From an uncultured Bacteroidales bacterium (lineage in GTDB: Bacteria > Bacteroidota > Bacteroidia > Bacteroidales > F082), in assembly GCA_946408345.1 (NCBI GenBank), contig CAMJRR010000016.1, forward strand, positions 1 to 64,000: a stretch of 64,000 bases of DNA, written 5' to 3'. Shown here piece by piece: positions 12,826-34,555 of this stretch. The first letter of the stretch is position 1. Every line of letters starts with the position of its first letter. The translations under genes and the position numbers were made by a program. A model generated the notes under the pieces. That model searched no databases. It was not told where the DNA came from and saw only the letters and a list, made by a program, of their open reading frames with translations.

Positions 12826-12969
12826 ATGTTAGGAATTGATACAAAACGGGAAATCATCACGGGAGAATTTGCCAGAAAAATATGGAGCGAAGTGCTTGCG
12901 ATGTGGCTTAAAGAAAAAACCGCCCAAACTGAAGAAACCGAACCAAAATACGAGGTAGAATGGCTGTGA
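12826..12969 (+). CDS. Small protein upstream of a GNAT toxin-like gene, possible antitoxin
   Basis: 47 residues (MLGIDTKREIITGEFARKI...EPKYEVEWL) beginning 20 bp after a good -7 box. It overlaps the next gene by 10 bp, so the two are translationally coupled. It is predicted to be mostly helical with an acidic C-terminal tail. It does not show the ribbon-helix-helix pattern of the DUF1778 antitoxins that normally accompany TacT/AtaT toxins, and it is shorter than those. An antitoxin role is a guess based on position; it could equally be a leader peptide. Confidence 0.45.
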   Translation: MLGIDTKREIITGEFARKIWSEVLAMWLKEKTAQTEETEPKYEVEWL

Positions 12970-13529: not shown

Positions 13530-13616
13530 CTTATTTCTTATTCAATTGATATTGGGAGAGCAGATTGTGGAGGAAATAAAGTGATTGTATTAATTTGAAA
13601 CACAATGGGGTCCGAA

Positions 13617-13675
13617 TTACAAATCTTTATATTCAAAGCCAGTGGATTGTAAATCCGTTGAAACATAAAAGTGTC
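13617..13675. repeat. GGATTTGTAATCC-family repeat, left of the PLD gene
   Basis: CCGAATTACAAATCTTTATATTCA followed by GGATTGTAAATCCG and AAACATAA. It matches, with few changes, the right half of the fuller element at 29848-29905. Together with 14822-14900 it brackets the PLD gene. Confidence 0.75.
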
Positions 13676-13702
13676 ATAATTCACAATAAATAGCCGAATT
13701 GT

Positions 13703-14812: not shown

Positions 14813-14821
14813 GTAATCTCC

Positions 14822-14900
14822 CGTTTGGTCGGATTTGTAATCCGAACATATCGAACCCACGGATTTGAAATTTAAAACAAACAATAAACATTTGATAAAC
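14822..14900. repeat. GGATTTGTAATCC-family repeat, right of the PLD gene
   Basis: GGTCGGATTTGTAATCCGAACA, then ACGGATTTGAAAT and AATAAACATTTGATAAACA. It matches the left half of the element at 29780-29850 (GGTCGGATTTGTAATCCG ... ATAAACATTTAATAAACA). Confidence 0.75.
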
Positions 14901-19219: not shown

Positions 19220-20593
19220 TTATCCAAACAACTCACTACCCAACTCATAAACCGAAGCCACTGGCACAATCTGAATCTTAAACCGCTTTGTATCCAAGCC
19301 TTTGGCATTGTATTTCGAGACGAAAATCTTCTCAAAACCTAATTTATCGGCCTCGGCGATGCGGGCTTCGATGCGGGTGACGGCGCGGATTTCTCCCGAC
19401 AAACCTACCTCTGCGGCAAAGGCATAACGCGAAGAGATGGGTATATCAGCATTCGACGAGAGCACAGCCGCGATGACGGCCAAGTCGATGGCAGGATCAT
19501 CCACGTGGAGGCCGCCTGCGATGTTCAGAAATACATCTTTTACTGAAAGTCTAAATCCAGCGCGTTTCTCCAACACAGCTAAAAGCATGTTCATCCTGCG
19601 GATGTCGAAACCCGTGGCGGAGCGTTGCGGCGTGCCGTAGGCTGCACTGCTCACTAAAGCCTGCGTCTCAATGAGCATAGGTCTTTGCCCTTCCATGGTG
19701 GCCGCGATAGCAATGCCACTCACTTCCTCGTCGCGCTGCGAGAGCAGAATCTCGCTGGGGTTGGTCACCTCGCGGAGGCCCGTTGCGTTCATCTCGAAAA
19801 TGCCCAACTCGGAGGCCGACCCGAAGCGGTTCTTGATGGTGCGCAAAATGCGGAAGCCATAGTGACGGTCGCCTTCAAACTGCAACACTGTGTCGACGAT
19901 ATGCTCCAAGATCTTCGGTCCGGCGATGCTGCCGTCCTTGGTGATATGGCCGATGAGGAACACTGGCACCTGATACGCCTTAGCAATCTTGTTCATCTCC
20001 GCGGCTGTCTCACGGATCTGCGAGAGGCTGCCCGCAGTGGCGTCTACGTAAGGCGATTCGAGCGTCTGGATGGAGTCGACAATCACGATGTCGGGCTGCA
20101 CATTCTTGAAGTGTTTCAAGATTTCCTGTGTGTTGGTCTCGGTGAGGATGAGGCAGTCGGTGTTGTGGATGCCGATGCGCTCGGCACGCATCTTGATTTG
20201 GGTCTGGCTTTCCTCGCCAGAGATGTATAGTATCTTTCTGCCAGCGAGTTGCAAGGCCGTCTGCAAGAGCAAAGTGGATTTGCCGATGCCAGGTTCACCG
20301 CCTACAAGGGTCAGCGAGCCGAGCACCAAGCCGCCACCAAGCACCCTATTAAGCTCCTCATAAGGCAAAATGATACGCTGTTCCTTGGCATTGCCAATCT
20401 CATTGATAGGCGTAGGAAGGCTTTTGTCCATCTCCAATCCGACACTTTTCTTCACCGATTTACTGTCCTTTCCCGTAACGACGGTCTCTTCTACACAGGT
20501 GTTCCACGCACCGCAAGCGGGGCATTTCCCGAACCATTTCGGCGACTCGTTGCCGCATTCCTTGCAGAAAAAGGCGGTTTTCTCTTTTGCCAT
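19220..20593 (-). CDS. radA: DNA repair protein RadA
   Basis: 457 residues. N-terminal C4 zinc finger (CKECGNESPKWFGKCPACGAW), RecA-like ATPase with Walker A GGEPGIGKSTLLLQ, Walker B IVIVDSIQTLES, the RadA-specific KNRFG motif (IKNRFGSASELGIF) and a C-terminal Lon-protease-like domain (DPAIDLAVIAAVLSS with EVGLSGEIRAVTR). RadA drives branch migration of recombination intermediates. Start at 20593 is supported by the zinc finger directly following. Transcribed towards DUF2442-ruvC, so this side of the window groups recombination genes on the minus strand. Confidence 0.96.
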   Translation of the reverse strand: MAKEKTAFFCKECGNESPKWFGKCPACGAWNTCVEETVVTGKDSKSVKKSVGLEMDKSLPTPINEIGNAKEQRIILPYEELNRVLGGGLVLGSLTLVGGEPGIGKSTLLLQTALQLAGRKILYISGEESQTQIKMRAERIGIHNTDCLILTETNTQEILKHFKNVQPDIVIVDSIQTLESPYVDATAGSLSQIRETAAEMNKIAKAYQVPVFLIGHITKDGSIAGPKILEHIVDTVLQFEGDRHYGFRILRTIKNRFGSASELGIFEMNATGLREVTNPSEILLSQRDEEVSGIAIAATMEGQRPMLIETQALVSSAAYGTPQRSATGFDIRRMNMLLAVLEKRAGFRLSVKDVFLNIAGGLHVDDPAIDLAVIAAVLSSNADIPISSRYAFAAEVGLSGEIRAVTRIEARIAEADKLGFEKIFVSKYNAKGLDTKRFKIQIVPVASVYELGSELFG

Positions 20594-20645
20594 AATGTTT
20601 GCCTTAATGACTAGCCAAGGTACACAACCCCACCCTTTACCCTCC

Positions 20646-20733
20646 TTGCGGGCTTGACCCGCAATCTCCCAAGCGCGAAGACGAATCCCTTGTGCTTGGG
20701 AGATGGCGGATGTTCCTCCGCCATGAGGGTAAT
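20646..20733. repeat. Composite palindromic repeat (CTCCCAAGCGCGAAGACGA family), copy 1
   Basis: Three hairpins in a row: TTGCGGGcttgaCCCGCAA, TCTCCCAAG...CTTGGGAGA and TGGCGGATgttcctCCGCCA. Copy 2 at 54558-54626 has the same core with the two outer hairpin words exchanged. Confidence 0.8.
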
Positions 20734-20825
20734 CGTGTAAGAGTTGTGGCCCTCAGACCAGTGTCTGTTTATGCCGCAAAAATAAGAAAAACGCCTCGTA
20801 AAAGAATAGAGTCTAAGATTTTTCC

Positions 20826-20833
20826 TATTTTTG
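20826..20833 (+). promoter_or_regulatory. -7 box (TATTTTTG) of the gene at 20854
   Basis: Exact TAnnTTTG match, 20 bp ahead of the start codon. No convincing -33 TTTG was seen. Confidence 0.55.
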
Positions 20834-20853
20834 TCCCAAAATCAAGAGGTTGA

Positions 20854-21579
20854 ATGAAAAGACGTTTACTCACCTTTATCGTATTGCTTTTCTCCTTGCA
20901 GACATTTGCTCAGCAGGGTGATGTGGTGCTATGTGAGGGTTTTTTCAACCCTTGGCTTGAAGAAGGCTGGGATGCGAAAGGCGACGATTGGGTGGTGTGG
21001 TACATCTCCAACACAACCTTTGCAGGATGTAAGCCGCACGAGATGCAGATGTACCCCGACTTCAATTTTGAAGGCACCACTCGATTGGTCACTCCTATTG
21101 TCGAGTTAGGAAAATACGATTTCATCAATTTTCAGTTCAACCATGCCCTCGAAGCCACACAAGGTGAAATCAATGCTCAAATTGGCATCGGTATTTCCCA
21201 AAATGGTGAAGATTGGGAAAGCATTTGGGAAGACACATTGGTGGGTAGCATCGCACAAAGCCAATATCTGCTTACCTTCGATATGGAAGAATGGACCACA
21301 AAGTCACCGCAGTTTTGCCTTTATTTTACGGGACATGGAGCGTATGTAACAAGCTGGTATATCGACAATGTCATCATCTATGCCTCGAAAAAGAATAAAT
21401 ATGGAGGCATGGACGACACCGACGAAAACGGTTTTGTGGCTGCACGGTCATCCATCACCACTTTGAGAGGTCCTTCGGCGGGTACGGTGACCAGTTTCTC
21501 TAAAATGAGAAGATCGAGCAACCGTTATGCCCGAGTGGTGGAGGGAAGACAAAAGAAATGGTGGCAATTCTGGAAATAA
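20854..21579 (+). CDS. Secreted protein with MAM/choice-of-anchor-like beta domain
   Basis: 241 residues with signal peptide (ends LQTFAQ). Residues ~25-180 read as a jelly-roll domain: CEGFFNPWLEEGWDAKGDDWVVW, TRLVTPIVELGKYDFINFQFNHAL, QIGIGISQNGEDWESIWED and VTSWYIDNVIIYA, the opening and closing signatures of cleaved-adhesin/choice-of-anchor J domains. There is no T9SS sorting domain; instead the last ~45 residues are Ser/Arg-rich and end in KKWWQFWK, an unusual basic aromatic tail. It is 8 bp ahead of the CotH gene, so both probably act together outside the cell. Confidence 0.7.
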   Translation: MKRRLLTFIVLLFSLQTFAQQGDVVLCEGFFNPWLEEGWDAKGDDWVVWYISNTTFAGCKPHEMQMYPDFNFEGTTRLVTPIVELGKYDFINFQFNHALEATQGEINAQIGIGISQNGEDWESIWEDTLVGSIAQSQYLLTFDMEEWTTKSPQFCLYFTGHGAYVTSWYIDNVIIYASKKNKYGGMDDTDENGFVAARSSITTLRGPSAGTVTSFSKMRRSSNRYARVVEGRQKKWWQFWK

Positions 21580-21587
21580 GCACAAAT

Positions 21588-23615
21588 ATGAAAAAGAGCA
21601 TCATAGTCTTTTTGCTGTTCTTATTGTCATTGTCGGTCACGGCACAGACTTTCACTGACAGCAACCTGCCCATCGTGGTCATCGAGACGGATGGAGGTGT
21701 CAATATCCCTGATGAGCCTAAAGTGCCTGGCACGATGAAAATCATCTGGCACCAAGACGGCTCGCGCAACTACATGACTGACATCAACAATCCCGAGTTC
21801 CTCAATTACGACGGTCGCATTGGCATCGAAATGCGTGGCAGCACTTCGCAGACCATGCTCAACAAGAAGCCATACGCCCTTGAAACCCGTGAAGACGATG
21901 ACATCACCATTAGGAATGTCAGTATCTTGGGAATGCCTGCCGAGAACGACTGGGTGCTCAATTCCTTGGCTTTCGACCAAACGGGGATGCGTGACGTGTT
22001 GGCCTATGAGCTTTCGAACCGTCTCGGACAATATGCCTCGCGCAGTGTGTATTGTGAGGTGGTGATTAACGGCGACTATAAAGGGCTCTATGCCTTCATG
22101 GAGAAAATCAAGCCTGACAAGAACCGCGTCAACATCGAAGAGATGGACCAAACCTGCAATAACTATCCTGAAGTGACAGGAGGCTACATCACCAAAGCCG
22201 ACAAGTCTAACGGCGACCCTGTGGCTTGGACAATGCAAGGCTATGGTGGAGGTTGGTGGGGCAACTACATAGATTTTATCCATCATTATCCCAAACCTGC
22301 CGACATCACCAATGCACAAAGCAACTACATCCATAGCGTGTTCACGGATCTTGCTTCTGTGGCCAACCACCACAATACATCTAGTACATCGGGCATCCCT
22401 TCGGTCATCGACATACCTTCTTTCGTCGATTTTCTGATGATTGCGGAATATACCTCCAATGTGGATGTCTATGCCTTCAGCACCTTTTTCCATAAAGACA
22501 GAATGGGCAAACTGCGGGCTGGTCCTGTTTGGGACTACAACCTCGCTTTCGGTTACGATGCGTTTGGCAATCGTAGCAAGTACAATGTGTGGCAGTTCAA
22601 TAACGAAGACAATACCGGCCCGAAGTTTTGGAAAGACTTATTCGACACCAACCTCTTCCGTTGCTATTTCGCCAAGCGATGGTTTGAACTGACCGAGCCA
22701 GGACAGCCTCTCAATTATGATTTCGTCTGCAATCGCATTGACGAAATCGATGCACTGATTGCTGAGGCCATCCCTCGCGACAACCAACGTTGGAACCAGA
22801 TGAATCAACACGCGCAGTATGTCAACAACATGAAAAACTGGCTCCAACTGCGCACCGACTGGTTGAACCAAAACATTGGCTCCTACGATGGCTGTTCCGA
22901 TGTCGACCTGCCACCTCTGGTCATCTCCAAAATCCACTACCATCCCATGGACTGGTGGAATATCGATGGCGACTTGTTTGAATTCATCGAAATCACCAAC
23001 AATGGTGATGAAGAAGTGGATTTGACAGGCATTTATTTCCGCGAGTTGGGTGTCACCTATCAGTTTCCGGACAATGCGCATATTGCTGGTCGACAAGCTA
23101 TTGTGCTTTGCTCTGATTCGTTAATGTTCACGGAGTATTACAACACCACACCTTTCGGTCAATACACGCGCAAGCTCGACAACAAGTCGGAAAATCTTGT
23201 CTTGGCTGATGCTTGGGGCAACATCATTGACCAGGTGCATTACTCCGATAGCCTGCCTTGGCCTATGGAAGCCGACGGCGAAGGTCCTTATCTCGAACTG
23301 AAAGACCTTGATTCCGACAATAGCTTGCCCGAAAACTGGGGAATTGGCGATGATTTGACAAAGATTGACAAATTCATTGAAAACCAAAACATTGCCCTTT
23401 ATCCCAATCCTACTTCGGGCAAGATTCACATCGCCTTATTGGAAAACGTCATTCATTGCCAAATCGCTGGTTTGATGGGCAATGTTTTGCAGGAAACTTC
23501 GCCTTCAAGTCCTGACTTTGAGTTGGATTTGAGCGGTTTGCCTTCGGGGATGTATTTGGTGAAGGTGCAGTTTGCTGATGGAAGGATTGCTTTCAAGAAA
23601 GTTGTTAAACAATAA
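21588..23615 (+). CDS. CotH-kinase family protein with lamin-tail domain and T9SS sorting domain
   Basis: 675 residues from the ATG at 21588, which starts a signal peptide (MKKSIIVFLLFLLSLSVTAQ); an in-frame start 30 bp upstream overlaps the previous gene and would bury it. CotH domain at ~70-400: GIEMRGSTSQTMLNKKPYAL, FMEKIKPDKNRVNIEEMD and AGPVWDYNLAFGYDAFG (catalytic Asp region). Lamin-tail domain at ~430-590 (FEFIEITNNGDEEVDLTGIYF, NLVLADAWGNIIDQVHY). The C-terminal ~75 residues (LYPNPTSGKIHI ... SGMYLVKVQF) are a T9SS type A sorting domain. A secreted protein kinase-fold enzyme anchored on the cell surface is the likely reading; its target is unknown. Confidence 0.9.
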   Translation: MKKSIIVFLLFLLSLSVTAQTFTDSNLPIVVIETDGGVNIPDEPKVPGTMKIIWHQDGSRNYMTDINNPEFLNYDGRIGIEMRGSTSQTMLNKKPYALETREDDDITIRNVSILGMPAENDWVLNSLAFDQTGMRDVLAYELSNRLGQYASRSVYCEVVINGDYKGLYAFMEKIKPDKNRVNIEEMDQTCNNYPEVTGGYITKADKSNGDPVAWTMQGYGGGWWGNYIDFIHHYPKPADITNAQSNYIHSVFTDLASVANHHNTSSTSGIPSVIDIPSFVDFLMIAEYTSNVDVYAFSTFFHKDRMGKLRAGPVWDYNLAFGYDAFGNRSKYNVWQFNNEDNTGPKFWKDLFDTNLFRCYFAKRWFELTEPGQPLNYDFVCNRIDEIDALIAEAIPRDNQRWNQMNQHAQYVNNMKNWLQLRTDWLNQNIGSYDGCSDVDLPPLVISKIHYHPMDWWNIDGDLFEFIEITNNGDEEVDLTGIYFRELGVTYQFPDNAHIAGRQAIVLCSDSLMFTEYYNTTPFGQYTRKLDNKSENLVLADAWGNIIDQVHYSDSLPWPMEADGEGPYLELKDLDSDNSLPENWGIGDDLTKIDKFIENQNIALYPNPTSGKIHIALLENVIHCQIAGLMGNVLQETSPSSPDFELDLSGLPSGMYLVKVQFADGRIAFKKVVKQ

Positions 23616-23635: not shown

Positions 23636-23690
23636 CGTTCGGTCGGATTTGCAATCCAATCGTATTGAATCCATAGATTTTTTTGAAAAA
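23636..23690. repeat. GGATTTGTAATCC-family repeat, left border of the accessory island
   Basis: TTCGGTCGGATTTGCAATCCAATCG, followed by ATTGAATCCATAGATTTTT. Same left arm as at 14822 and 29780. A weaker TTGAATTTGCAATCC occurs at ~23818. Confidence 0.7.
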
Positions 23691-23715
23691 AAGACGGTTG
23701 TTAGATAAGAGTATC

Positions 23716-23751
23716 TATCTTTGTAACCGCCATTAAGTTAATGCGCATTAA
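23716..23751 (+). promoter_or_regulatory. Orphan -7 box and 14-bp perfect palindrome
   Basis: TATCTTTG at 23716-23723 (exact TAnnTTTG) is followed after 14 bp by TTAATGCGCATTAA at 23738-23751, a perfect palindrome placed like an operator or a 5' leader structure. No full-length gene follows on the plus strand for 1.3 kb. Confidence 0.45.
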
Positions 23752-24049
23752 ATTAACAGCAAAAACTAACGGCACAGCCAAGTAAGTGACACGGCTGTTT
23801 AATGCTTATCTTTCGATTGAATTTGCAATCCTCCTCTTTTCAAAAACTCGATTCTGTCGCCTTTAACCAACATATTTTAATAAAAAGTATTGCCTATAAC
23901 CAACATGAATGCGGATTTGCCTGATTCCTACATCTTTGCCGATGACATCGAATCGCCTATCGGAGCCAAGCTGCTCCTTTGGATGCTGGGGTTTTTGTAT
24001 TAGTTAGGAAAATCATAGTCGGGAGATGCAAAATCAGCCAGCAGCAAAA
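23752..24049. other. AT-rich gap at the left edge of the accessory island
   Basis: Contains ACAGCC...GGCTGT as a possible hairpin at ~23777-23800, a partial GGATTTGCAATCC-type word near 23818, and one 32-codon open frame at 23905-24003. No RNA gene could be recognised. It looks like remodelled DNA left by insertions. Confidence 0.5.
23905..24003 (+). CDS. Possible small protein or gene remnant (32 residues)
   Basis: The frame from ATG 23905 reads MNADLPDSYIFADDIESPIG and ends AKLLLWMLGFLY, a composition that looks like real protein (acidic amphipathic part, then a hydrophobic C-terminus) in otherwise poorly coding DNA. It may be a small membrane-associated peptide or the remnant of a longer gene. 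There is no recognised family; treat as tentative. Confidence 0.3.
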   Translation: MNADLPDSYIFADDIESPIGAKLLLWMLGFLY

Positions 24050-24844
24050 TTAATTGATGTCGTCGTTTATTGAAATTAGTTTACCCCAACCGTCGCAAGC
24101 AGAGTGTTCTTTAGTAAAATCAAACCATTCCTTGTAGACAGATTCCGTGTTTTGAATGTATTGTAGCACTCTATTACTTGTCGCTCTATTGTTCTGATAG
24201 TACTGGTAAAGCAATTGTTTGTAAGCTTCTTTCTGATCCTCAAAAGTGCTAAAAGCAATCAGCTTTTCACAACAGTTTATTATGCTAAAGTTTTTATAAA
24301 TCGATATTCCTTCGGTTTTTAATGGTATACGACTTTCAATTATGAGATCAGGGAATTCCTTACAATAAGAAGGTGTTTTTTCTTTAAGAATTGTTTTTTG
24401 TTGAATTACAGCGGTTTCATGCAATACAATTCCATAGAAGAAAAGACTTTCTTGCAATAAATGAGCATCGTTTACAGGTTTGCCGAATAGTATGTCATTT
24501 TTGTCATCAAATGTAACTTCACCAAATGAAATAGCACCATTTGTGGCATAACCTTGTTCAAACAATAAGTTTTGAAAATGTGCCGAAGCAATAAGGATAG
24601 ATGAAAAACCGTCTTCGCTATCATCATCAGAAACTAGGAAGATAGAATCAGAAAAAACCTTGGCATGAACACTTATTCCTGTTTTTTCTTTGTCCAAGTA
24701 TTCTTTAATTTGCTCAACGATGGAGTGAAATATCATCCATATATCTTCGGCATTTTTGTTTTCCACTATTTTTTTAAAACCCATAATGTCCAATGCGGCA
24801 AAAAAACGATTTTTTGTGTAGTTATTATTGTATCGGAATTGCAT
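24050..24844 (-). CDS. Class III nucleotide-cyclase-like protein
   Basis: 264 residues, no membrane or signal segment, AT-rich. The order of motifs fits a class III cyclase catalytic domain: FAALDIMGFKKIV (first metal Asp19, as in F-x-D-I-x-G-F), VHAKVFSDSIFLVS (second metal Asp66), then GAISFGEVTFDDKNDILFG and KPVNDAHLLQESL, corresponding to the canonical 'G-x-x-x-G-x-V ... G-x-x-V-N-x-A-x-x-L' dimer segment. Stand-alone soluble cyclases of this type act in Pycsar phage defence, making cCMP or cUMP. No effector with a cyclic-nucleotide-binding domain is adjacent; the neighbours are the divergent recombinase/ATPase/helicase operon. Substrate and role are inferred; a non-cyclase relative of the fold is possible. 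Confidence 0.6.
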   Translation of the reverse strand: MQFRYNNNYTKNRFFAALDIMGFKKIVENKNAEDIWMIFHSIVEQIKEYLDKEKTGISVHAKVFSDSIFLVSDDDSEDGFSSILIASAHFQNLLFEQGYATNGAISFGEVTFDDKNDILFGKPVNDAHLLQESLFFYGIVLHETAVIQQKTILKEKTPSYCKEFPDLIIESRIPLKTEGISIYKNFSIINCCEKLIAFSTFEDQKEAYKQLLYQYYQNNRATSNRVLQYIQNTESVYKEWFDFTKEHSACDGWGKLISINDDIN

Positions 24845-25020
24845 TTTTTATGTAATAATCTATTTTATAGGATAATACGTATTATGACTATTGTCACTTT
24901 TGAAAACAAAAATACAAAGAATAGAATCAAGACATTCAAGAACATTTCAACAACCGTTGTTGATAGACCTATCGTTTCGATAAAAAGCAATTCTTTGCTG
25001 TATGATTTTGGATTTTGTTC

Positions 25021-25028
25021 TAATTTTG
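25021..25028 (+). promoter_or_regulatory. -7 box (TAATTTTG) of the recombinase/ATPase/helicase operon
   Basis: Exact TAnnTTTG, 64 bp upstream of the first start codon; TTTG at 24994-24997 lies 23 bp further up. Confidence 0.55.
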
Positions 25029-25092
25029 CAATGGAAACTGAAAGATTGTATATTTAACTTTCTTTTTACAACTATATGTAATTCAATGAAAA

Positions 25093-26316
25093 ATGATTTG
25101 TAAGTACATTAGACTATCTTCAAAAAACAAAGATGAAAAGGAACAAAGCCAAGTCATTGATGCCTATCTGTGCAAAAAAGGGTTGGTTGCGGACAAGCTT
25201 GTCAGGGAAAATGCGGTTTTCAAAGGGAAAAAGTATGACCAAGCTCTTTTTCAGAAATTGTGTAGAACCTTGAATAATGCAGATTGGATTGTTGTTTCAG
25301 AAGTAAGCGTAATTGCAAGAAACAGTATAAGCGAGCTTTGCGAGATAATAGAAACTTGTATTAAACCAAATGGATTGCGTCTTGTTGTCTGCAATGTTGG
25401 TTTTGACATCGACTTCTCATATAGCAACCCGATGGTTGAAATGCAGATGAATTTGTTTGCTTCCATAGCGCAAATGGAAAAAGAAGTAATTCAGACAAGA
25501 ACGCAAACCGCAATTGATAGAATTAAAGATGAAATTAACGAATTTGGCTACCACATCTCTAAGAGCGGCAACAGAGTGACCAAACTTGGAAACGGTCAAG
25601 CACCTTCTGACAAATGCTTGGCCGCGAGTGCTGCTGCCAAGCGAAAAAGGGCTTTGGATAATGAAAACAATATGAAATTCTATCAATACTTTATTGCATT
25701 TGAGGAAAAAAACGGAAAATTTTCAGAGAATGACAGAATCACAAATGCAAGGAATTGGGAAAAACTTGCAGATGAATTGAACCAACATGGATTTCTTACA
25801 TCGAGCGGGCTTCCCTTCGATTCGATGAGATGTAGAAATGCTTATAGGACTTTGAAGAATTTGTTCTTTGAAAACAAACTTGAACCAAATAGAGAAACAG
25901 GAAGCGGCCAAAAGATTCAACTGCGAATGGAGTCGACGAGGAAAAAGGTTGAACTTGATGAAGGCAATTTAGAGGCTGAAAGAAAGAGGTTTAAGAATAC
26001 AGTTCAAGCACTTGATGTCTTGCTTGCTGAAGATAAAGATGATATGAAAGACAAAAACACTTTCAAAAGTTCAAGTTTACCATTTTCTAATTGGAAAAAA
26101 GAATTGTTTGAACTGTTCATCCAATTCGATTATTGCATTGACCAAGAGAATTTGACAGCATTTGCTCGTCAAAACAATTTAATGGCAAACTCAATGATTG
26201 ACAGCATTAATGATGAATATTTTGAATTATTGGACGACTGTTTGATTGAAGAAAGCGAAAATGGCTGGATGATGAACCAGTATTATTACGAACAAATCAA
26301 AAACAAGATACTATGA
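25093..26316 (+). CDS. Serine-recombinase-like protein with TerB-C-like C-terminal domain
   Basis: 407 residues. Residues 1-145 are a resolvase catalytic domain: KYIRLSSKNKDEKEQSQ (Arg7 and nucleophile Ser9), VSEVSVIARNSISELCEII, and the E-helix IAQMEKEVIQTRTQTAI. The second catalytic Arg of the DRLGR-type motif is replaced (Val73), while the last one (Arg76) is kept. Residues ~220-251 (NWEKLADELNQHGFLTSSG) are the usual recombinase helix-turn-helix. The last ~80 residues (ELFIQFDYCIDQENLTAFAR, SMIDSINDEYFELLDD, CLIEESENGW) look like the TerB-C domain that ends proteins paired with DUF2791 ATPases and helicases. The stop overlaps the ATPase start by 4 bp. It is probably a DNA-binding subunit of the operon's complex rather than a classical invertase. 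Confidence 0.7.
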   Translation: MICKYIRLSSKNKDEKEQSQVIDAYLCKKGLVADKLVRENAVFKGKKYDQALFQKLCRTLNNADWIVVSEVSVIARNSISELCEIIETCIKPNGLRLVVCNVGFDIDFSYSNPMVEMQMNLFASIAQMEKEVIQTRTQTAIDRIKDEINEFGYHISKSGNRVTKLGNGQAPSDKCLAASAAAKRKRALDNENNMKFYQYFIAFEEKNGKFSENDRITNARNWEKLADELNQHGFLTSSGLPFDSMRCRNAYRTLKNLFFENKLEPNRETGSGQKIQLRMESTRKKVELDEGNLEAERKRFKNTVQALDVLLAEDKDDMKDKNTFKSSSLPFSNWKKELFELFIQFDYCIDQENLTAFARQNNLMANSMIDSINDEYFELLDDCLIEESENGWMMNQYYYEQIKNKIL

Positions 26317-27623
26317 ATGTGAAACCCAAAGAAGCGACAGAAATCATCAATTCACTGATTAGTGGCACAGTGCCGCGAATTGGCATTCAGCACATTGCCG
26401 TGGGGCGTGATGAAGAGATACAGGCCATGCTACGCACGCTGGAAGATGTGAAAAACGGGCATAATGCCGCGAAGTTTTGGATTGGGGAATTTGGATCTGG
26501 AAAGTCTTTCATGCTTCACTTGATGAAAGTTGTGGCAATGAAGCAGAAGTTTGTCGTTTCGCAAGCGGATTTCAGTCCTGAAGTAAGGTTATATGCCTCG
26601 GATGGAAAATCATTGGCATTGTATAAGAATCTGATGGACAACATTTCCATTCAGACTAAGCCCGAAGGTGGTGCATTGCCAACTTTGATTGAGAAATGGA
26701 TAGACCAAGTAGTTGTGAAAACTGCTTTGGATTTGGGAGTAGGTATGGAACAAATACTTTCTCCTCAATGTTATAAGAAAGTTGAACAGCGTATTTTGGA
26801 AACTCTCAACCAAATTTCAAGTGCGGATAGTTTTGATTTTGGCGTTGTCATTGCAAAATATTTTGAAAGCCATATTAATAGCGATGACAACATGAAACGG
26901 AACGCTTTAAGATGGTTGAAAGGCGAATACAAGAACAAAACAGACGCAAGAATGGACTTGGGAGTACGGGATATTGTAAACGACCAGAACTGGTACAATA
27001 TGATAAAGAACTTTTGTCACCTGTTTGTCTCCATTGGTTATAGTGGGTTTATGGTGAATCTAGATGAAGCAATCAACCTATACAAGATACCAAGTTCAGT
27101 AGTTCGGCAAAAGAATTATGAAAAGATTCTGACCATTTACAATGACTGTTACCAAGGGAATTGCAGCAACTTATTCGTGAATTTTGCAGGTACAAATGAG
27201 TTTCTTGAAAGCCAAAAAAGAGGATTGTATAGTTACAATGCATTGAAGAGTAGAATAGAACCTAACAAATATGCAGTCAATGGAATCAAGGATTTTGCGC
27301 AGCCTGTAATAAAGATTACCCCTATAGATCATACCAATATCTTTATTTTGCTGAAAAACCTAAAAGAGATTTTTGATTTCAATTATTCAGTTCGGATGGA
27401 AGTGACTGATGAAGACATTCGTGCCTTTATGGAGGAAATCTATAACAAACCTGGAGCATTGGAATTTTTGATGCCGAGAGATGTAATTCGTGATTTCCTC
27501 AATGTTTTGAGTACTTTACGGCAAAACCCATCGGTAACTTTTGGCGATTTATGTAAAAAAATAGAGATCAAGGACGAGAGACCTATGGAAGATGTTTTAC
27601 TTGATTCAATCACCGAACTATGA
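26313..27623 (+). CDS. BrxC/BrxD-type (DUF2791) P-loop ATPase
   Basis: 436 residues. After an N-terminal helix (EATEIINSLISGTVPRIGIQHIAVGRDEEI) comes Walker A GEFGSGKSF (residues 58-66) and FVVSQADFSPEVRLY; Walker B is GFMVNLDEAINLY with Asp251/Glu252. The opening 'I-x-x-L-x-x-G-x-x-P-x-x-G' and the AAA+-like core match the BREX ATP-binding family (BrxC/BrxD, DUF2791), the short BrxD-like form in length. Sensor-like NLFVNFAGTNEF follows. In type 2 BREX, BrxD is paired with an Lhr-like helicase, and the same pairing is seen here with 4-bp overlaps on both sides. It may load or power the helicase. Confidence 0.8.
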   Translation: MNVKPKEATEIINSLISGTVPRIGIQHIAVGRDEEIQAMLRTLEDVKNGHNAAKFWIGEFGSGKSFMLHLMKVVAMKQKFVVSQADFSPEVRLYASDGKSLALYKNLMDNISIQTKPEGGALPTLIEKWIDQVVVKTALDLGVGMEQILSPQCYKKVEQRILETLNQISSADSFDFGVVIAKYFESHINSDDNMKRNALRWLKGEYKNKTDARMDLGVRDIVNDQNWYNMIKNFCHLFVSIGYSGFMVNLDEAINLYKIPSSVVRQKNYEKILTIYNDCYQGNCSNLFVNFAGTNEFLESQKRGLYSYNALKSRIEPNKYAVNGIKDFAQPVIKITPIDHTNIFILLKNLKEIFDFNYSVRMEVTDEDIRAFMEEIYNKPGALEFLMPRDVIRDFLNVLSTLRQNPSVTFGDLCKKIEIKDERPMEDVLLDSITEL

Positions 27624-29758
27624 CAGCCTACGAATTGTTGTCAGAGCCGATTCGTCGTTATGTCAAGGATAGAAAATGGGAAAAGTTCACCCCTATCCAG
27701 TCGGCGGCTATCGTCAAAATTATGACGACCGACAATAACTATGTGTTGGCTTCACGGACTGCTTCAGGCAAAACCGAGGCCGCTTTTTTGCCTATCTTTT
27801 CGAAAGTGGATTTCAACCAACCGGGAGTGCAAGTGCTTTATATTTCGCCTTTGATAGCGTTGATTAATGACCAAATGGAACGAGTAGAGGAATTATGTTC
27901 CTATTTGGATGTGACGGTTACAAAATGGCATGGTGAAGCGAGTGCAATAAAGAAAAACAAATTGTTAGAATCACCCGATGGCATCGTGCTCATCACCCCA
28001 GAATCCATTGAAGCAATGTTCCAAAACAAGCCGAATTATGTCAGAAAACTCTTTTCAAGTCTGAAGTTCATTGTCGTTGATGAAATCCATTATTATTTCG
28101 GTACGGAAAGAGGTGTGCATTTGCAATCGTTGCTGTATAGGTTATCAAAGATAAATGTTGGTAAATGTAGATATGTAGGACTATCGGCTACGATTGGAGA
28201 TTTTACTTTGGCAAAAGAGTTTTTTGGTCAACCAGAAAGCACTAAAGTTTTGATTGATAATACGCCGAAACCTAATAAAGTAGAAATCAAATACTTCCCG
28301 TCGGAACCTCTTCAACTCTCTGTTGATTTGCTAAAAGATTTGTATAAGAAAACACGAGGCAAGAAAGCCCTCGTTTTCGCAAATACAAGAACTCTTGTTG
28401 AGAATGCTTCGGTAAAATTGTCTCAAATTTCGGAGTTGGTAGGTGGTTACTCCAATTATTTTTCCCATCACTCTTCGGTAGATAGGGATATAAAAGAGTA
28501 TGCAGCCTTTTTCGCTAAACATTCTCGTTATGAGCCATTCACAATTTGTTGTACTTCAACATTAGAATTGGGTATTGACATCGGGAACGTGGATACAGTC
28601 GTTCAGATACAATCACCTCATAGTGTGTCTTCAATGGTTCAAAGGATGGGAAGAAGTGGTCGAGGACAGAATTCAACGAGTGAGTTGACAATTTATGCAA
28701 CGAATAAATGGGACTTGCTCCAAGCTTTGGCTTGTTGGCGACTTTTCGAAAAGGGTGTTTTTGACATTTCTGAACGGATAAAACGGCCTTATGACATTTT
28801 GCTTCATCAAATGCTTTCGATAGTAAAAGAAAGAACAGAAATAGGTGCTGAAGAACTTGTTCGTGAACTGCACGAAAACATAGCCTTTCGTGATTGTGAT
28901 ATTGATTCGGCAAAAATGATTATTCGTAAATTGATTGATGAGGATATGCTTGAAGAGATTGGCAAAAAACTCATTGTGGGACTGAAAGGCGAAAAGTATT
29001 TTGATGCCGGAGAACTGTATACTGTATTTTGGAGTTCTTTTGAATATGAAGTTTTTTATAACGACCAAGCCATTGGCAGTTTGTGTCCAGATACGAATGT
29101 TGAAATTGGTATGACCGTTTTCCTTGCTGCCAAAATGTGGAGAATTGTTGAGATCGATAACGAAAGAATGAGAATCTATGTTGATACCGCTTCTGTAGGT
29201 GATGCTCCTATATTTAAAGGTACGGGGGGATACGATGTCAGTTACGAAGTGGAAAAAGAAATGTCGGAAATTTTGTTTGATGATGAAATCTATCCTGTTT
29301 TGGATACACAAGGGGCTGAAGCTTTGAAAAAGTTGAGAGTTGAATACAATAATTATCAACAAATTGGACATTCGAGCATTCCATTTTTGATCAATAATGA
29401 TTCTATATCATTACTTCTGTTGTGTGGGACAAAAGCTGAGAAAACGCTTTTGTGGTTATTGCGTTCTTATTCTTTTATGCATAAAGGGTCAGGACATGAT
29501 AAAGAGATTATTGTTTATGGAGATTTGGATAAGTATAGGAGCACCTTGTCAAAAATCAAAGAAATTGGAACTCAATACGAGAAATTGTTGATTCAGAGTA
29601 TAGAAAAAATTTCATGGGATAGTGTTGCAAAATTTAGCATCATTCTTCCCCAAAAATTACAAGTTCGTCTGGCTTATGATAGATTGTTTGATTTGGATAC
29701 AGCATTGAAAGTAATTAGAGAAATGTTGGATGGATGTTTCGATAGTTGTATTAATTGA
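27620..29758 (+). CDS. Lhr-like SF2 DEAD/DEAH-box helicase
   Basis: 712 residues. Full set of SF2 motifs: Q-like KFTPIQSAAI, motif I ASRTASGKTEAA (Lys51), Ia LYISPLIALINDQ, Ib LITPESIEAM, II VVDEIHYYFG (Asp154), III GLSATIGD, IV ALVFANTRTLVE, V STLELGIDIGNVDTVVQ and VI QRMGRSGRG. A C-terminal ~280-residue extension (IKRPYDILLHQMLSIVKERTEIG and later beta-rich parts) resembles the winged-helix and Lhr-core region of BrxHI-type helicases. It is the last gene of the operon. It would translocate on DNA, perhaps guided by the other two proteins. Confidence 0.88.
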   Translation: MTAYELLSEPIRRYVKDRKWEKFTPIQSAAIVKIMTTDNNYVLASRTASGKTEAAFLPIFSKVDFNQPGVQVLYISPLIALINDQMERVEELCSYLDVTVTKWHGEASAIKKNKLLESPDGIVLITPESIEAMFQNKPNYVRKLFSSLKFIVVDEIHYYFGTERGVHLQSLLYRLSKINVGKCRYVGLSATIGDFTLAKEFFGQPESTKVLIDNTPKPNKVEIKYFPSEPLQLSVDLLKDLYKKTRGKKALVFANTRTLVENASVKLSQISELVGGYSNYFSHHSSVDRDIKEYAAFFAKHSRYEPFTICCTSTLELGIDIGNVDTVVQIQSPHSVSSMVQRMGRSGRGQNSTSELTIYATNKWDLLQALACWRLFEKGVFDISERIKRPYDILLHQMLSIVKERTEIGAEELVRELHENIAFRDCDIDSAKMIIRKLIDEDMLEEIGKKLIVGLKGEKYFDAGELYTVFWSSFEYEVFYNDQAIGSLCPDTNVEIGMTVFLAAKMWRIVEIDNERMRIYVDTASVGDAPIFKGTGGYDVSYEVEKEMSEILFDDEIYPVLDTQGAEALKKLRVEYNNYQQIGHSSIPFLINNDSISLLLLCGTKAEKTLLWLLRSYSFMHKGSGHDKEIIVYGDLDKYRSTLSKIKEIGTQYEKLLIQSIEKISWDSVAKFSIILPQKLQVRLAYDRLFDLDTALKVIREMLDGCFDSCIN

Positions 29759-29779
29759 AATTGGGGTTTTATCCTCTTA

Positions 29780-29905
29780 TTTCGGTCGGATTTGTAATCC
29801 GCTCAACAACAAATTACAACATAAACATTTAATAAACATAAATTCATCGGATTACAAATCCTTATATTCATAACCGGCAGATTGCAAATCCGCCAAAACA
29901 ATAGC
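29780..29905. repeat. GGATTTGTAATCC-family repeat, fullest copy, right border of the accessory island
   Basis: Left arm TTCGGTCGGATTTGTAATCCG (29782-29802), an AT-rich centre with ATAAACATTTAATAAACATA, and right arm CGGATTACAAATCCTTATATTCA with GCAGATTGCAAATCCGCC. The arms are near-palindromic. It ends 20 bp before the recJ stop codon. Confidence 0.8.
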
Positions 29906-29924: not shown

Positions 29925-31703
29925 TTACAACTCCTCCGCAAACTTAATGTCCTTAACATTAAGCTGCAAGTTGGTCTTGCCTTGCCAGGTGTTGTATTCC
30001 AAGTGGTAGCAGATGCTGAAAGGCTCGCCGCTGTGGATGCGGTTGAAGAGGTCGCCTTTCTGGAAAGCGATGCCCGAGAAAGGAGCCACACCTTGTTCGG
30101 CATCACCTACTTGCGAAACGGTGAGTTTCAAGTGCTTGTGACCGCCAACAGGACGTGAGCCGCCTACGTCGATAACATTGTCCGTCCAAAACACAGGAGC
30201 CATGTTGCCCGGACCAAAAGGTGCAAATTGATTCAGTATGCGCATGAATTTAGCCGTGATGTCACTGAACTTGATCTTCAAGTCCACTTCAAGCTCGGGT
30301 ACAAAATCCTCATCCACAAGATGTTCGCTGACATAAGCCTCAAAACGACGACGGAACTCAGGCAGGTTTTCAGGCTTCATCGAAAGACCAGCTGCATATT
30401 TATGGCCGCCGAAATGCTCAAGCAAATCGGAACAATTGTCGATAGCATCGTAAATATCGAAGCTCTTGATGGAACGTGCCGAGCCCGTAACCAAACCATT
30501 GGCACGCGTCAGGACGATGGTGGGACGATAATAATAATCGGTGAGGCGTGAGGCCACGATACCGATGACACCACGGTGCCAACGTTCGTTGAAGACTACG
30601 GTGCTCTTGGCATCGCGAAGCTCAGCATCGGCATCAATCATATCAAGGGCTTCTTCTGTGATACGATTGTCGAATTCACGGCGTTCGTCATTGAGGTCGT
30701 TGATGGAGGCAGCCAATTTTTCGGCGTGTTCCTTCTTGTCGGCGATAAGCAGACGCACGGAATCTGAAGCCTTGGCGATACGTCCAGCAGCGTTAATTCG
30801 TGGGCCAATAAGGAAAACCAAGTCGCTGATGGTCAGCTCTCTAGTCAGCACATTTTCGTCTTCGGCTAGTTGGTCTTCGTCGCGACGGTAGATGTTGGCG
30901 TGTTGCAAAATAGCTTCAATACCTGGACGAGGCTTTTTGTTGAGTTGCTTCAAGCCAAAATAAGCCAATACTCGATTTTCGCCCGTGATGGGGACGATAT
31001 CAGCAGCAATGCTCACGGCCAAAAAGTCGAGCAGATCATAGACTTGTTCTATGGTACCATAGCCTTTCATCGAAAGGGCGGTAACCAACTTAAAGCCTAC
31101 ACCACAACCCGAAAGTTCATCGTAAGGATAGTTGCAGTCAGGACGTTTGGCATCCAGCACAGCTACGGCATTCGGGATGACGTCACCAGCACGGTGGTGG
31201 TCACAAATGATGAAGTCGACCCCGCGTTCGTTAGCGTATTCGATGCGTTCCACAGCCTTGATGCCGCAGTCAAGGGCAATGACCAGTTTAAATCCGTTAT
31301 CTGCCGCATAGTCAATGCCTTTGATGGAGATGCCATAGCCTTCTTCATAGCGGTCGGGGATGTAGAACTCAATTTTTTTCTTCTTAAAGAAAGGCTTCAA
31401 GTAAGTGTAGACCACGGCCACGGCCGTTGTGCCATCCACATCATAGTCGCCATAAACCAATACCTTCTCATTTTCATTAATGGCACGGATAACCCTTTCA
31501 ACAGCTTTATCCATATCCTTCATAAGGAATGGATCATAGAGTTGGGAAAGCGATGGACGGAAGAAAGTCTTGGCTTCTTCGTAATTCGTAATTCCACGTT
31601 GAACAAGCAAAGTGGCAAGGTTCTCATCAATATTGAGCACCTTGACTATCTCGGCAACTTGCTGTTTGTCAACCGATTGATTTAAAATCCACTTTGTTTC
31701 CAT
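29925..31703 (-). CDS. recJ: Single-stranded-DNA-specific exonuclease RecJ
   Basis: 592 residues. RecJ degrades single-stranded DNA 5' to 3' in recombination and repair. DHH-phosphoesterase motifs: VLVYGDYDVDGTTA, LVIALDCGIKAVE, FIICDHHRAGDVIP (DHH) and the later GVGFKLVTAL; the DHHA1 domain carries GVIGIVASRLTDYYYRPTIVL and ...LLEHFGGHKYAAGLSMK, followed by the C-terminal OB domain. The length fits the Bacteroidales enzyme. Its 3' end abuts the repeat that closes the accessory island, and it is convergent with the helicase operon. Confidence 0.96.
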   Translation of the reverse strand: METKWILNQSVDKQQVAEIVKVLNIDENLATLLVQRGITNYEEAKTFFRPSLSQLYDPFLMKDMDKAVERVIRAINENEKVLVYGDYDVDGTTAVAVVYTYLKPFFKKKKIEFYIPDRYEEGYGISIKGIDYAADNGFKLVIALDCGIKAVERIEYANERGVDFIICDHHRAGDVIPNAVAVLDAKRPDCNYPYDELSGCGVGFKLVTALSMKGYGTIEQVYDLLDFLAVSIAADIVPITGENRVLAYFGLKQLNKKPRPGIEAILQHANIYRRDEDQLAEDENVLTRELTISDLVFLIGPRINAAGRIAKASDSVRLLIADKKEHAEKLAASINDLNDERREFDNRITEEALDMIDADAELRDAKSTVVFNERWHRGVIGIVASRLTDYYYRPTIVLTRANGLVTGSARSIKSFDIYDAIDNCSDLLEHFGGHKYAAGLSMKPENLPEFRRRFEAYVSEHLVDEDFVPELEVDLKIKFSDITAKFMRILNQFAPFGPGNMAPVFWTDNVIDVGGSRPVGGHKHLKLTVSQVGDAEQGVAPFSGIAFQKGDLFNRIHSGEPFSICYHLEYNTWQGKTNLQLNVKDIKFAEEL

Positions 31704-31927
31704 TCACGCAATTTTGAACTTGTAAAAATAAGGAAAAAACTAATGCAGCCTAATGGAATTTTCAATTTATATTCAAATTTGTTTTTAATTCTCTATTTTA
31801 CAATTATTTAAAACTCAGAAATTATTCTATTCTACATAACGGAACAGGTTTTTGTAGCCATCAAAATCTGTTGATATCTTTCCTAAAAAATTGTCGTTTT
31901 AGTGTTGCGCCGCTTTCAGTTTTTTCG

Positions 31928-31935
31928 TAATCTTG
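31928..31935 (+). promoter_or_regulatory. -7 box (TAATCTTG) of purH
   Basis: One mismatch to TAnnTTTG, 29 bp upstream of the TTG start codon of purH. The A+T-rich gap 31704-31964 between recJ and purH otherwise shows only a possible divergent box (TATTTTTA on the minus strand). Confidence 0.5.
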
Positions 31936-31964
31936 CAGTCCTAAATTAGCAAAATTTTACACCC

Positions 31965-33482
31965 TTGAAAAAGATTAAAACTGCTTTAATATCAGTATTT
32001 TATAAAACAGGCATCGACACTATCGTCAACTTGTTGAAGCAAAATGACGTACAGATATACTCCACTGGAGGAACATACGACTTCATCAAGCCGTTAGACC
32101 CTACCGTGAAGACCGTCGAGTCACTCACGGGCTATCCGTCTATCTTGGGCGGTCGCGTGAAGACTTTGCATCCCAAAGTATTTGGCGGCATTTTGGGTCG
32201 CACCCAACTTGCATCGGACCAAAAAGAAATGCAGGAATACGACATCCCACCCTTCGATTTGGTTATTGTGGACTTGTATCCTTTCGAGGAGACCGTGGCC
32301 AAGACTGAAGATGCCTCTGCCATCATCGAGAAAATTGACATTGGCGGCATCTCGCTCATCCGCGCCGGCGCCAAGAACTTCAACGACGTGCTCATCGTGC
32401 CGTCACAGAAATATTATGGCGAACTCATCCAACTGCTGAAAGACCAGCAGGGTGAGACCTCCATTGACGACCGCCGCCGTTTTGCTGCCTACGCCTTTGG
32501 CGTGAGCTCACATTACGACAGTGCCATCATGAACTGGTTTGTGAAAGATGATGACAACAAGCCGCTGCGCATCACTGAAGAAGAAGGCACTACTTTGCGC
32601 TATGGCGAAAATCCGCACCAGAAAGGCACCTTCTACGGCGACTTGGATGCCATGTTTGAGAAACTGCACGGCAAAGAGCTGTCATACAACAACTTACTTG
32701 ACCTTGATGCAGGATTGAACCTCATCCGTGAGTTCGACGAGCCCACCTTCGCCATCCTCAAACACAACAACCCTTGTGGCATTGCTTGCCGCAAGACGGT
32801 GAAAGAGGCTTATCTCGCCGCTTTGGCTGGCGACCCCGTTTCGGCCTTTGGTGGCGTGCTGGTCAGCAATCGCCCCATCGACTTGGCTGCCGCTGAAGAC
32901 ATCAACAAGCTCTTCATCGAAGTCATCGTGGCACCTGAGTATGAAAATGGCGTGCTCGACCTGCTCTTCTCGAAGAAGAACCGAATGGTGTTGCGTCTAA
33001 AAGCCGACCAATACAAGCCTCAAACAGTGAAAACTGCTTTGAACGGCTATCTCGTGCAAGACCGTGACCTCCATACGGAAACCGCTGACGACTTCAAAGT
33101 CATCACCACAAAAGCACCCACTGCTGACGAGGTGGACGACATGATTTTTGCCAACAAGATTGTGAAGCATAGCCGCAGCAATGCCATCGTCCTCGCCAAA
33201 GGCAAACAACTCTTTGCCTCGGGTATTGGACAGACCTCACGTGTGGATGCCCTGCGTCAAGCCATAGAGAAGGCCCATTCGTTCAACTTCGACCTGAAAG
33301 GTGCCGTGTTAGCCTCCGATGCCTTCTTCCCCTTCAAAGATTGCGTTGAGTTGGCACACGAAGCGGGCATCACTGCTATTGTACAACCCGGCGGCTCGGT
33401 ACGCGACCAAGAATCCATCGATTGCTGCAACGAAAATGGCATCAGCATGGTGTTTACCGGATTTAGACATTTTAGACATTGA
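31965..33482 (+). CDS. purH: Bifunctional AICAR transformylase / IMP cyclohydrolase PurH
   Basis: 505 residues with a TTG start: a stop codon lies 18 bp upstream in frame and no ATG exists before conserved sequence begins (KIKTALISVFYKTGIDTIV). PurH performs the last two steps of IMP synthesis. IMP cyclohydrolase domain: IYSTGGTYDFI, GYPSILGGRVKTLHPKVFGGIL, DLVIVDLYPFEETV, and IGGISLIRAGAKN. Transformylase domain: LRYGENPHQKG, ILKHNNPCGIA, SAFGGVLVSNRPID and SDAFFPFKDCVELA. All landmarks are present. It precedes mreB as in many Bacteroidota. Confidence 0.96.
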   Translation: MKKIKTALISVFYKTGIDTIVNLLKQNDVQIYSTGGTYDFIKPLDPTVKTVESLTGYPSILGGRVKTLHPKVFGGILGRTQLASDQKEMQEYDIPPFDLVIVDLYPFEETVAKTEDASAIIEKIDIGGISLIRAGAKNFNDVLIVPSQKYYGELIQLLKDQQGETSIDDRRRFAAYAFGVSSHYDSAIMNWFVKDDDNKPLRITEEEGTTLRYGENPHQKGTFYGDLDAMFEKLHGKELSYNNLLDLDAGLNLIREFDEPTFAILKHNNPCGIACRKTVKEAYLAALAGDPVSAFGGVLVSNRPIDLAAAEDINKLFIEVIVAPEYENGVLDLLFSKKNRMVLRLKADQYKPQTVKTALNGYLVQDRDLHTETADDFKVITTKAPTADEVDDMIFANKIVKHSRSNAIVLAKGKQLFASGIGQTSRVDALRQAIEKAHSFNFDLKGAVLASDAFFPFKDCVELAHEAGITAIVQPGGSVRDQESIDCCNENGISMVFTGFRHFRH

Positions 33483-33532
33483 CATTATAAACTGAAGATA
33501 AATAAACAACTGACAACTAACAACTGAAGATT

Positions 33533-34555
33533 ATGGGAGCATTTTCATTCCTAAACAAAGAAATCGCCATTGACCTTGGTACGGCCAATACGATTATCAT
33601 ATACAACGACAAAGTAGTCGTTGACGAGCCCTCCATCGTGGCTTTGCAACGCGACACAAAGAAAATCATCGCCGTTGGCAAACGTGCCATGATGATGCAC
33701 GGTAAGACACACGAGAACATCAAGACCATTCGCCCGCTGCGCGACGGTGTCATCGCCGACTTCCAAGCTGCCGAATATATGATGCGCGAGATGATTAAGA
33801 TGATCAATTTCAAGAATACTCTGTTTCCGCCCAGCCTGAAGATGGTCATCTGCATCCCTTCGGGTATCACCGAGGTGGAGGAACGTGCCGTGAAGGACTC
33901 GGCTGAGCAAGCTGGTGCCAAGGAAGTGCGTCTGATTCATGAGCCTATGGCTGCTGCCATCGGTATCGGTATCGACGTACTTGAGCCAACAGGTAACATG
34001 ATTATCGACATCGGTGGCGGTACCTCCGAAATCGCCGTCATCGCCTTGGGTGGTATTGTTAACAACAAATCCATCCGTATTGCTGGTGACGACTTCACCG
34101 CCGACATCGAAGAGTACATGCGTAAGCAGCACAACATCATCGTGGGTGAGCGCACCGCCGAACGCATCAAGATCGAGGTGGGTTCTGCCATTCCGCAATT
34201 GGACAACCCGCCCGATGACTATGCCGTGCAAGGCCGTGACATGCTGACCGGTATCCCGAAGGAAATCAAGGTGAACTATGCCGAAATCGCCCACTGCCTC
34301 GACAAGAGCATCATGAAGATTGAGACCGCTGTGTTGAATGCCTTGGAGCAGACGCCTCCTGAGCTGTCGGCTGATATTTACCGCACGGGTATCTACCTCA
34401 CTGGTGGTGGTGCCTTGTTGCGCGGCCTCGACAAGCGTCTCAACGGCAAGACCAAACTGCCCATCCACGTGGCTGAAGACCCGTTGCGTGCCGTCGCCCG
34501 TGGCACTGGTATCGCACTGAAGAACTTTGACCGCTTTACGTTCTTGATTAAATAA
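33533..34555 (+). CDS. mreB: Rod-shape-determining actin homologue MreB
   Basis: 340 residues, the standard length. Actin-fold motifs: phosphate 1 IAIDLGTANTIIIYNDKVVVDEPSIVAL, the connect segment RPLRDGVIADF, phosphate 2 GNMIIDIGGGTSEIAVIALGGIV and the adenosine motif GIYLTGGGALLRGLDKRL. MreB filaments position cell-wall synthesis along the membrane. It is the first gene of mreBCD, about 90 bp ahead of mreC; that gap is filled by a dispersed repeat. Confidence 0.97.
   Translation: MGAFSFLNKEIAIDLGTANTIIIYNDKVVVDEPSIVALQRDTKKIIAVGKRAMMMHGKTHENIKTIRPLRDGVIADFQAAEYMMREMIKMINFKNTLFPPSLKMVICIPSGITEVEERAVKDSAEQAGAKEVRLIHEPMAAAIGIGIDVLEPTGNMIIDIGGGTSEIAVIALGGIVNNKSIRIAGDDFTADIEEYMRKQHNIIVGERTAERIKIEVGSAIPQLDNPPDDYAVQGRDMLTGIPKEIKVNYAEIAHCLDKSIMKIETAVLNALEQTPPELSADIYRTGIYLTGGGALLRGLDKRLNGKTKLPIHVAEDPLRAVARGTGIALKNFDRFTFLIK

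Follow-up and report, generated by a model that had tools for sequence, protein, structure and literature searches.

A Shango-type operon of a Bacteroidales genome with an invertase-type serine recombinase in place of the SngA front

The operon and its identity

We analysed a 64,000-nucleotide stretch of an uncultured Bacteroidales bacterium (contig CAMJRR010000016.1 of assembly GCA_946408345.1, positions 1 to 64,000; hereafter the window), in which three open reading frames (ORFs) on the + strand form an operon: 25093-26316 (407 amino acids, aa), 26313-27623 (436 aa) and 27620-29758 (712 aa), with a 4-base overlap at each junction. The operon has a G+C content of 0.376, against 0.49 in the flanks at 19220-23615 and 29925-34555. 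An earlier reading of the letters alone (the sequence-only reading) had described three overlapping genes on one strand in an A+T-rich stretch, and these figures agree with it, as do the Pfam results with its domain calls. Gene 1 matched PF00239 (2.4e-17, residues 5-145) and PF15615, TerB_C (5.5e-8, residues 282-402); gene 2 matched PF10923, BrxC_BrxD (1.9e-139); and gene 3 matched DEAD (1.5e-34) and Helicase_C (2.5e-15), with WH_Lhr at 17.2 bits, under its 27-bit cut-off.

PADLOC profiles gave all three genes a name. Gene 2 matched SngB over residues 2-422 (3.8e-158), gene 3 matched SngC over residues 2-700 (1.1e-186), and the tail of gene 1, residues 250-405, matched positions 393-526 of the 528-position SngA profile (1.4e-18). 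Because these profiles name SngB, SngC and the tail of SngA, the operon is, by its sequence, of the Shango type (sngA-sngB-sngC), a three-gene anti-phage system. Three of the elements expected of Shango are at the locus: an SngB ATPase, an SngC helicase and, directly upstream of SngB, a first subunit with a TerB_C tail. The second gene encodes a BrxD-like AAA ATPase with an intact Walker A motif (GEFGSGKS, residues 58-65), and the third a BrxHI/Lhr-like superfamily 2 (SF2) helicase with motifs I, II (DEIH), III (SAT) and VI intact. The passages on Shango in PMC10250203 give its parts as a TerB-like protein, an ATPase and a helicase, and report that the Shango of P. aeruginosa PA14 (cDHS1) protects PAO1 against several, not all, of the phages tried; a 2026 review, in its lines on the system, gives the mechanism as unknown (PMC12926258). 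The sequence-only reading had taken the three genes for something other than an established defence system. That claim did not survive, as an ATPase, an Lhr-like helicase and a TerB_C protein together are what PMC10250203 describes as Shango in those passages, and we rejected an undescribed system for the reason that the PADLOC profiles name this one.

The ATPase and helicase are also homologous to those of type 2 BREX, and a helicase phylogeny, in the part that treats these proteins, groups SngC with BrxHI in a clade that is potentially distinct (PMC12278908). We give almost no credence to a BREX fragment made of BrxD and BrxHI: the profiles of both do match genes 2 and 3, but they score far below those of Shango (152 bits for BrxD vs 525 for SngB, 416 for BrxHI vs 621 for SngC). 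Unlike a type 2 BREX locus, the insert that holds the operon contains only sngABC and one gene of unknown family. No PglZ is encoded by the ORFs of the locus, as had been noted from the sequence, and the sole PglZ match in the genome, which is 86% complete, was PorX, a regulator of the type IX secretion system (T9SS), on another contig. We therefore rejected BREX on the scores and on the identity of that match.

What sets the operon apart from Shango as in PA14 cDHS1 is the front of its first subunit. Both operons combine an ATPase and a DEAD/DEAH helicase with a TerB-family protein, the TerB_C tail is common to them, and genes 2 and 3 match the SngB and SngC profiles over their full length; unlike that of PA14, the first subunit of the window is without TerB_N, TerB and the middle region of SngA, and has a recombinase-type half in their place. 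In gene 1 the N-terminal and middle regions of TerB/TerB_N type went unmatched, with neither PF13208 nor PF05099 found by Pfam and only positions 393-526 of the SngA profile aligned. These two families were likewise unlisted for all 80 SngA proteins of the same SngB clade (sample below). When four conventional SngA proteins were compared with the SngA profile, those of loci L049, L050 and L051 matched further forward and that of L054 did not.

The recombinase half of the first subunit

The structure model of gene 1 (pLDDT 81.5) matched the TP901-1, Bxb1, gamma-delta and Tn3 recombinases, and Pfam, alignment and model together indicated a resolvase fold with the catalytic serine present. Along the gene, a resolvase catalytic-type domain (25093..25428, residues 1-112) leads into a long modelled helix (25429..25545, residues 113-151), which we take to be the counterpart of the dimerisation (E) helix in serine recombinases. 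A helical domain of DNA-binding type, drawn from the model and from sequence comparison, follows at 25609..25869 (residues 173-259), and the TerB_C tail, common to the SngA proteins of the clade, lies at 25936..26298 (residues 282-402), with residues 334-406 modelled as three helices and a hairpin. The sequence-only reading had staked its TerB-C tail on a profile match for residues 327-407; the match was there, and it starts earlier, at residue 282.

In a large protein set we found five clusters of such fusions, the window's own included, and 12 shorter relatives. The stand-alone recombinases among these are 256-271 aa long and too short for the tail; one of them, P0006 (262 aa), is 63% identical to the window protein over its recombinase half. 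Residues were mapped by alignment to solved serine recombinases, in which Arg8, Ser10, Arg68 and Arg71 of gamma-delta have catalytic roles. Their counterparts in the window protein are Arg7, Ser9, V73 and Arg76. The Arg68 equivalent was lost in all five fusions, to Val in four and Ile in one; unlike the fusions, 11 of the 12 shorter relatives keep it. The exception, P0013, has a fusion-type N-terminus and lies on a contig of 2251 bases, and may thus be a fragment of a cut fusion. At position 51 (A51 in the window protein), which is the Arg45 equivalent or its neighbour, as HMMER sets Arg45 one column earlier, arginine was lost in four of the five fusions and kept in 10 of the 12 shorter relatives (Lys in P0010, Ala in P0013). 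Further changes affected Ser9 (Ala in P0005, Thr in P0013) and Arg76 (Lys in P0004 and P0005). Judging by these losses across the fusions, recombinase catalysis is probably, though not certainly, gone.

We compared the five fusions with nine stand-alone recombinases, P0013, P0016 and P0017 being left out of the latter, and mean identity between the two groups was 0.47 for residues 1-100, 0.55 for 101-145, 0.51 for 146-185 and, highest, 0.59 for 186-256. Within the stand-alone group it ran the other way, with 0.71 for residues 1-100 and 0.51 for 186-256. The window protein is identical to P0006 at 49 of 100 residues in 1-100 and at 56 of 71 in 186-256.

At informative sites, single fusions read as mosaics. 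Set against P0001 and P0006, P0003 was of fusion type at 49 of 50 sites in residues 1-100 and then of stand-alone type at 21 of 21 sites in 101-150, 1 of 5 in 151-185 and 14 of 14 in 186-256. In the same comparison P0002 kept the fusion type through the first three segments (50/50, 18/20 and 3/4) and was of stand-alone type at all 12 sites of 186-256. P0004, set against P0001 and P0007, was of fusion type at 49 of 51 and 20 of 24 sites in the first two segments, of stand-alone type at 15 of 15 in 151-185, and again of fusion type at 11 of 14 in 186-256. The pairs for these comparisons were picked by hand after a prior look at the data, and in each of five comparisons none of 20000 shuffles gave as few runs. 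Because of the mosaic blocks in P0002, P0003 and P0004, we read parts of the dimerisation and DNA-binding side as exchanged with live invertase genes, in which the catalytic arginine is retained; the apparently dead catalytic part is held. The idea, already part of the sequence-only reading, that the recombinase part would provide DNA recognition is now better supported, and it stays a prediction.

Genes for serine recombinases or DNA invertases in the Cellulophaga phages phi38:1, phi40:1 and Calle_1, together with an adjoining hypothetical protein, matched the window protein over residues 48-256 (27-28% identity), a range that takes in its DNA-binding part.

Occurrence of the fusion and exchange of the first subunit

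To place the fusion among its relatives we used the best 80 of 147 confirmed named loci, fetched with an SngB alignment; two of the 80, L099 and L106, run off their contigs, and the front of their sngA is not fully seen. In all 80 an ORF ends within 10 bases of the SngB start, and this upstream ORF carried TerB_C in 80/80 and a resolvase domain in 0/80 (Pfam, E 1e-3). Residues 276-407 of the window protein matched all 80 SngA proteins, and residues 1-268 matched none. The expectation that the TerB_C tail is tied to the ATPase was thus confirmed. As for a survey of linkage of the whole first gene, which had been proposed beforehand, the answer is split: the tail is linked to the ATPase in 80 of 80, and the recombinase part, with 0 of 80, is a rare replacement.

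Wider samples, which partly overlap the genomes of the 80 loci, were searched as well. Among 395 genomes of the phylum, SngB occurred in 20 other places, with a recombinase match in none and a tail match in 8; among 393 genomes of the order it occurred in 4 other places, with no recombinase match and two tail matches, one of them on the opposite strand. Within the family, SngB was found in only 2 of 173 genomes, that of the window and RUG390. Searched with the fusion, five other genomes of the 60 of the same genus gave weak matches to the recombinase part, at 25-27% identity. A profile of fusions plus stand-alones matched 2 of 295 genomes of the order: the window's own and G315, where the match was a 308-aa recombinase aligned to profile positions 1-145 only. 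The four fusion clusters beyond the window's own are 53-91% identical to it, so that the fusion is not a one-off misassembly, and we rejected misassembly of this genome alone on that ground.

The closest comparison came from RUG390, an uncultured Bacteroidales bacterium of the same genus (genome G124, ONKQ01000016.1, loci L054/L055). Its DNA is 96.7% identical to the window's over 2861 bases, which take in sngB and the first two thirds of sngC, and 90.7% identical over the last 765 bases, to the end of sngC. The SngB proteins are 99% identical, with a dN/dS of 0.057 for sngB between the two. Unlike the window's, the RUG390 SngA has 330 aa and a conventional middle region without a recombinase, its part before the tail matching the middle of three Hymenobacter SngA proteins (2e-5 to 6e-5), and a different gene follows sngC. 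Counted in 60-base steps from 26218, identity was 45, 53 and 54 of 60, and 55-60 in the next twenty steps; since it falls off there, we place the exchange point near the sngA/sngB junction. With sngB and sngC near-identical and sngA different, nearly the same motor genes are, by sequence comparison, paired with two different first subunits. This swap of the front half of SngA suggests that the target-recognising part of Shango can be exchanged.

Other additions to the front of SngA were seen by Pfam among the 80 loci, SH3_3 in five and TM2 in two, and we regard them as further signs of a variable SngA front. Read by their N-termini, the SH3-like fronts belong to L084, L106, L120, L123 and L128, and the TM2-like fronts to L078 and L127. 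Directly upstream of sngA at L049 (taken to be L089, Chryseobacterium defluvii), a 296-aa gene (6896-7786, - strand) has a BRCT domain (2.6e-10). In three Bacteroidales loci, L155, L156 and L157, SngB is more distant, at roughly 1e-98 to 1e-106 by phmmer against that of the window. In L155 and L156 the gene upstream of SngB was not matched by the TerB_C tail of the window protein at E 0.01; L157 has a divergently placed gene that the tail matches weakly (1.4e-5).

Proposed working, its alternatives and the insert

We propose that this is a Shango operon whose SngA has, in place of its usual front, a catalytically dead invertase-type recombinase acting as a DNA-binding targeting module, a reading to which we give about even chances. 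A dimer or tetramer of SngA would bind DNA, at sites like those of invertases or resolvases, through its recombinase part; the TerB_C tail would dock on the ATPase SngB and recruit it; SngB would load or control the helicase SngC; and SngC would act on the bound DNA, so that phage or other mobile DNA is blocked. The shared elements are tail, ATPase and helicase, and on the simplest view the tail would provide the coupling to SngB and the front would determine where the motor is placed.

Several points weigh against this proposal. The anti-phage effect of the fusion variant is a prediction, and no target site was found for the SngA variant. The SngA profile match to gene 1 spans only the last quarter of the profile; a match so confined was also obtained with the conventional SngA of L054, and the fusion P0005 aligned to positions 269-524. 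Ser9, Arg7 and Arg76 are all kept in the window protein, so its inactivity is predicted rather than proven. P0001-P0004 form one lineage (83-91% identical to P0001), so that the residue losses represent about two histories and not five independent ones. The P0003 and P0004 mosaics rest on 3 sequences and 1 sequence, the P0002 cluster on 44, and possible assembly chimeras are the main caution on the mosaic; the higher identity of the DNA-binding part is not independent of it, because exchange would itself raise that identity. Finally, the fusion as a query found only the window's own genome, 1 of 60 of the same genus and 1 of 393 of the order.

That same rarity would suit a chance fusion or a decaying operon without function, which we nevertheless think very improbable: the fusion is kept in clusters down to 53% identity, the ATPase and helicase motifs are intact, and the dN/dS of sngB is low. 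An active recombinase, which would cut target DNA as an effector or move the cassette, would account for the three retained residues of the window protein and for the position of the operon within an insert missing from three relatives. We consider it improbable, given Val or Ile at the Arg68 equivalent in all five fusions and the substitutions at Ser9 in P0005 and at Arg76 in P0004 and P0005, and given that the edges of the insert are repeats with 13 copies in the genome, which also occur at one empty site. Possible, if on the unlikely side, is that the recombinase part does no targeting and is either an oligomerisation scaffold or an autorepressor at the operon promoter. The dimerisation helix and the DNA-binding part are both retained, and binding close to the gene that encodes them is common among serine recombinases; still, the trading of parts of the DNA-binding side with other invertases is easier to explain if the targets change than if there is one constant site at the operon's own promoter.

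Extending the targeting-module reading, Shango may be modular and retargetable, with a constant SngA tail that couples the motor and a front that is an exchangeable recogniser, here a dead, domesticated invertase whose DNA-binding side is refreshed from the live invertases of mobile elements and so aimed at the recombination sites of those elements. We attach limited belief to this extension and offer it as speculation. If it is true, a mobile-element enzyme has lost its catalysis and been turned into part of a defence system. The variant makes the question of how Shango recognises its targets directly testable, because it keeps nearly the same ATPase gene and swaps in a front with a well-understood mode of DNA binding. 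Shango itself is known; what appears new here is the exchanged first subunit, for which we make no claim of absence from print.

The operon lies between two genes, CotH (21558-23615) and RecJ (29925-31703), which border a 6.3-kb interval that contains it. RecJ was found in 14 other genomes of the same-genus sample, 11 of which were fetched, and CotH adjoined it in three of these (L137, L138 and L143, the aligned ends being about 17, 15 and 213 bases apart) and was unmatched beside RecJ in the other eight. The claim that the operon is inserted among other genes is upheld by the three in which CotH and RecJ are direct neighbours. The insert absent from these relatives runs approximately from 23660 to 29785 and contains, besides sngABC, a 264-aa gene on the - strand (24050..24844), treated here as a neighbour and not as part of the system. 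This gene had no Pfam match and nothing over the cut-off in NCBIfam; it matched PHROG 23933 (function unknown, 2.2e-11) and, weakly, a CARF-type PADLOC profile (E 0.0099 over 25 residues). Of 119 genomes of the family, 2 others gave weaker matches to part of it. Its motifs LDIMGF and SDSIFLV are, we presume, reminiscent of nucleotide-cyclase-type proteins.

Copies of a dispersed palindrome-like repeat flank the insert, an inexact one on the left (23638..23657) and another on the right (29781..29800). The repeat, CGGATTTGYAATCCG, has 13 exact copies in the genome, several in close pairs, including those at 14830 and 29787 of the window; read backwards, it has 0 copies in the genome. Of the empty sites, that of L143 already has the repeat; in the compared stretch of L137 and L138 it was not seen. 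That the operon is flanked by repeats, as first read from the sequence, is thus true. These repeats are dispersed genome-wide and present at an empty site, and for this reason we rejected them as proof of insertion. The repeat may be a place of recombination.

In a second A+T-rich stretch of the window, 12960-14844, a GNAT acetyltransferase is encoded at 12960-13529 and a PLD/NgoFVII-type domain protein at 13703-14812. The stretch ends at the exact copy of the same repeat at 14830 and is perhaps another accessory insert at such a repeat.

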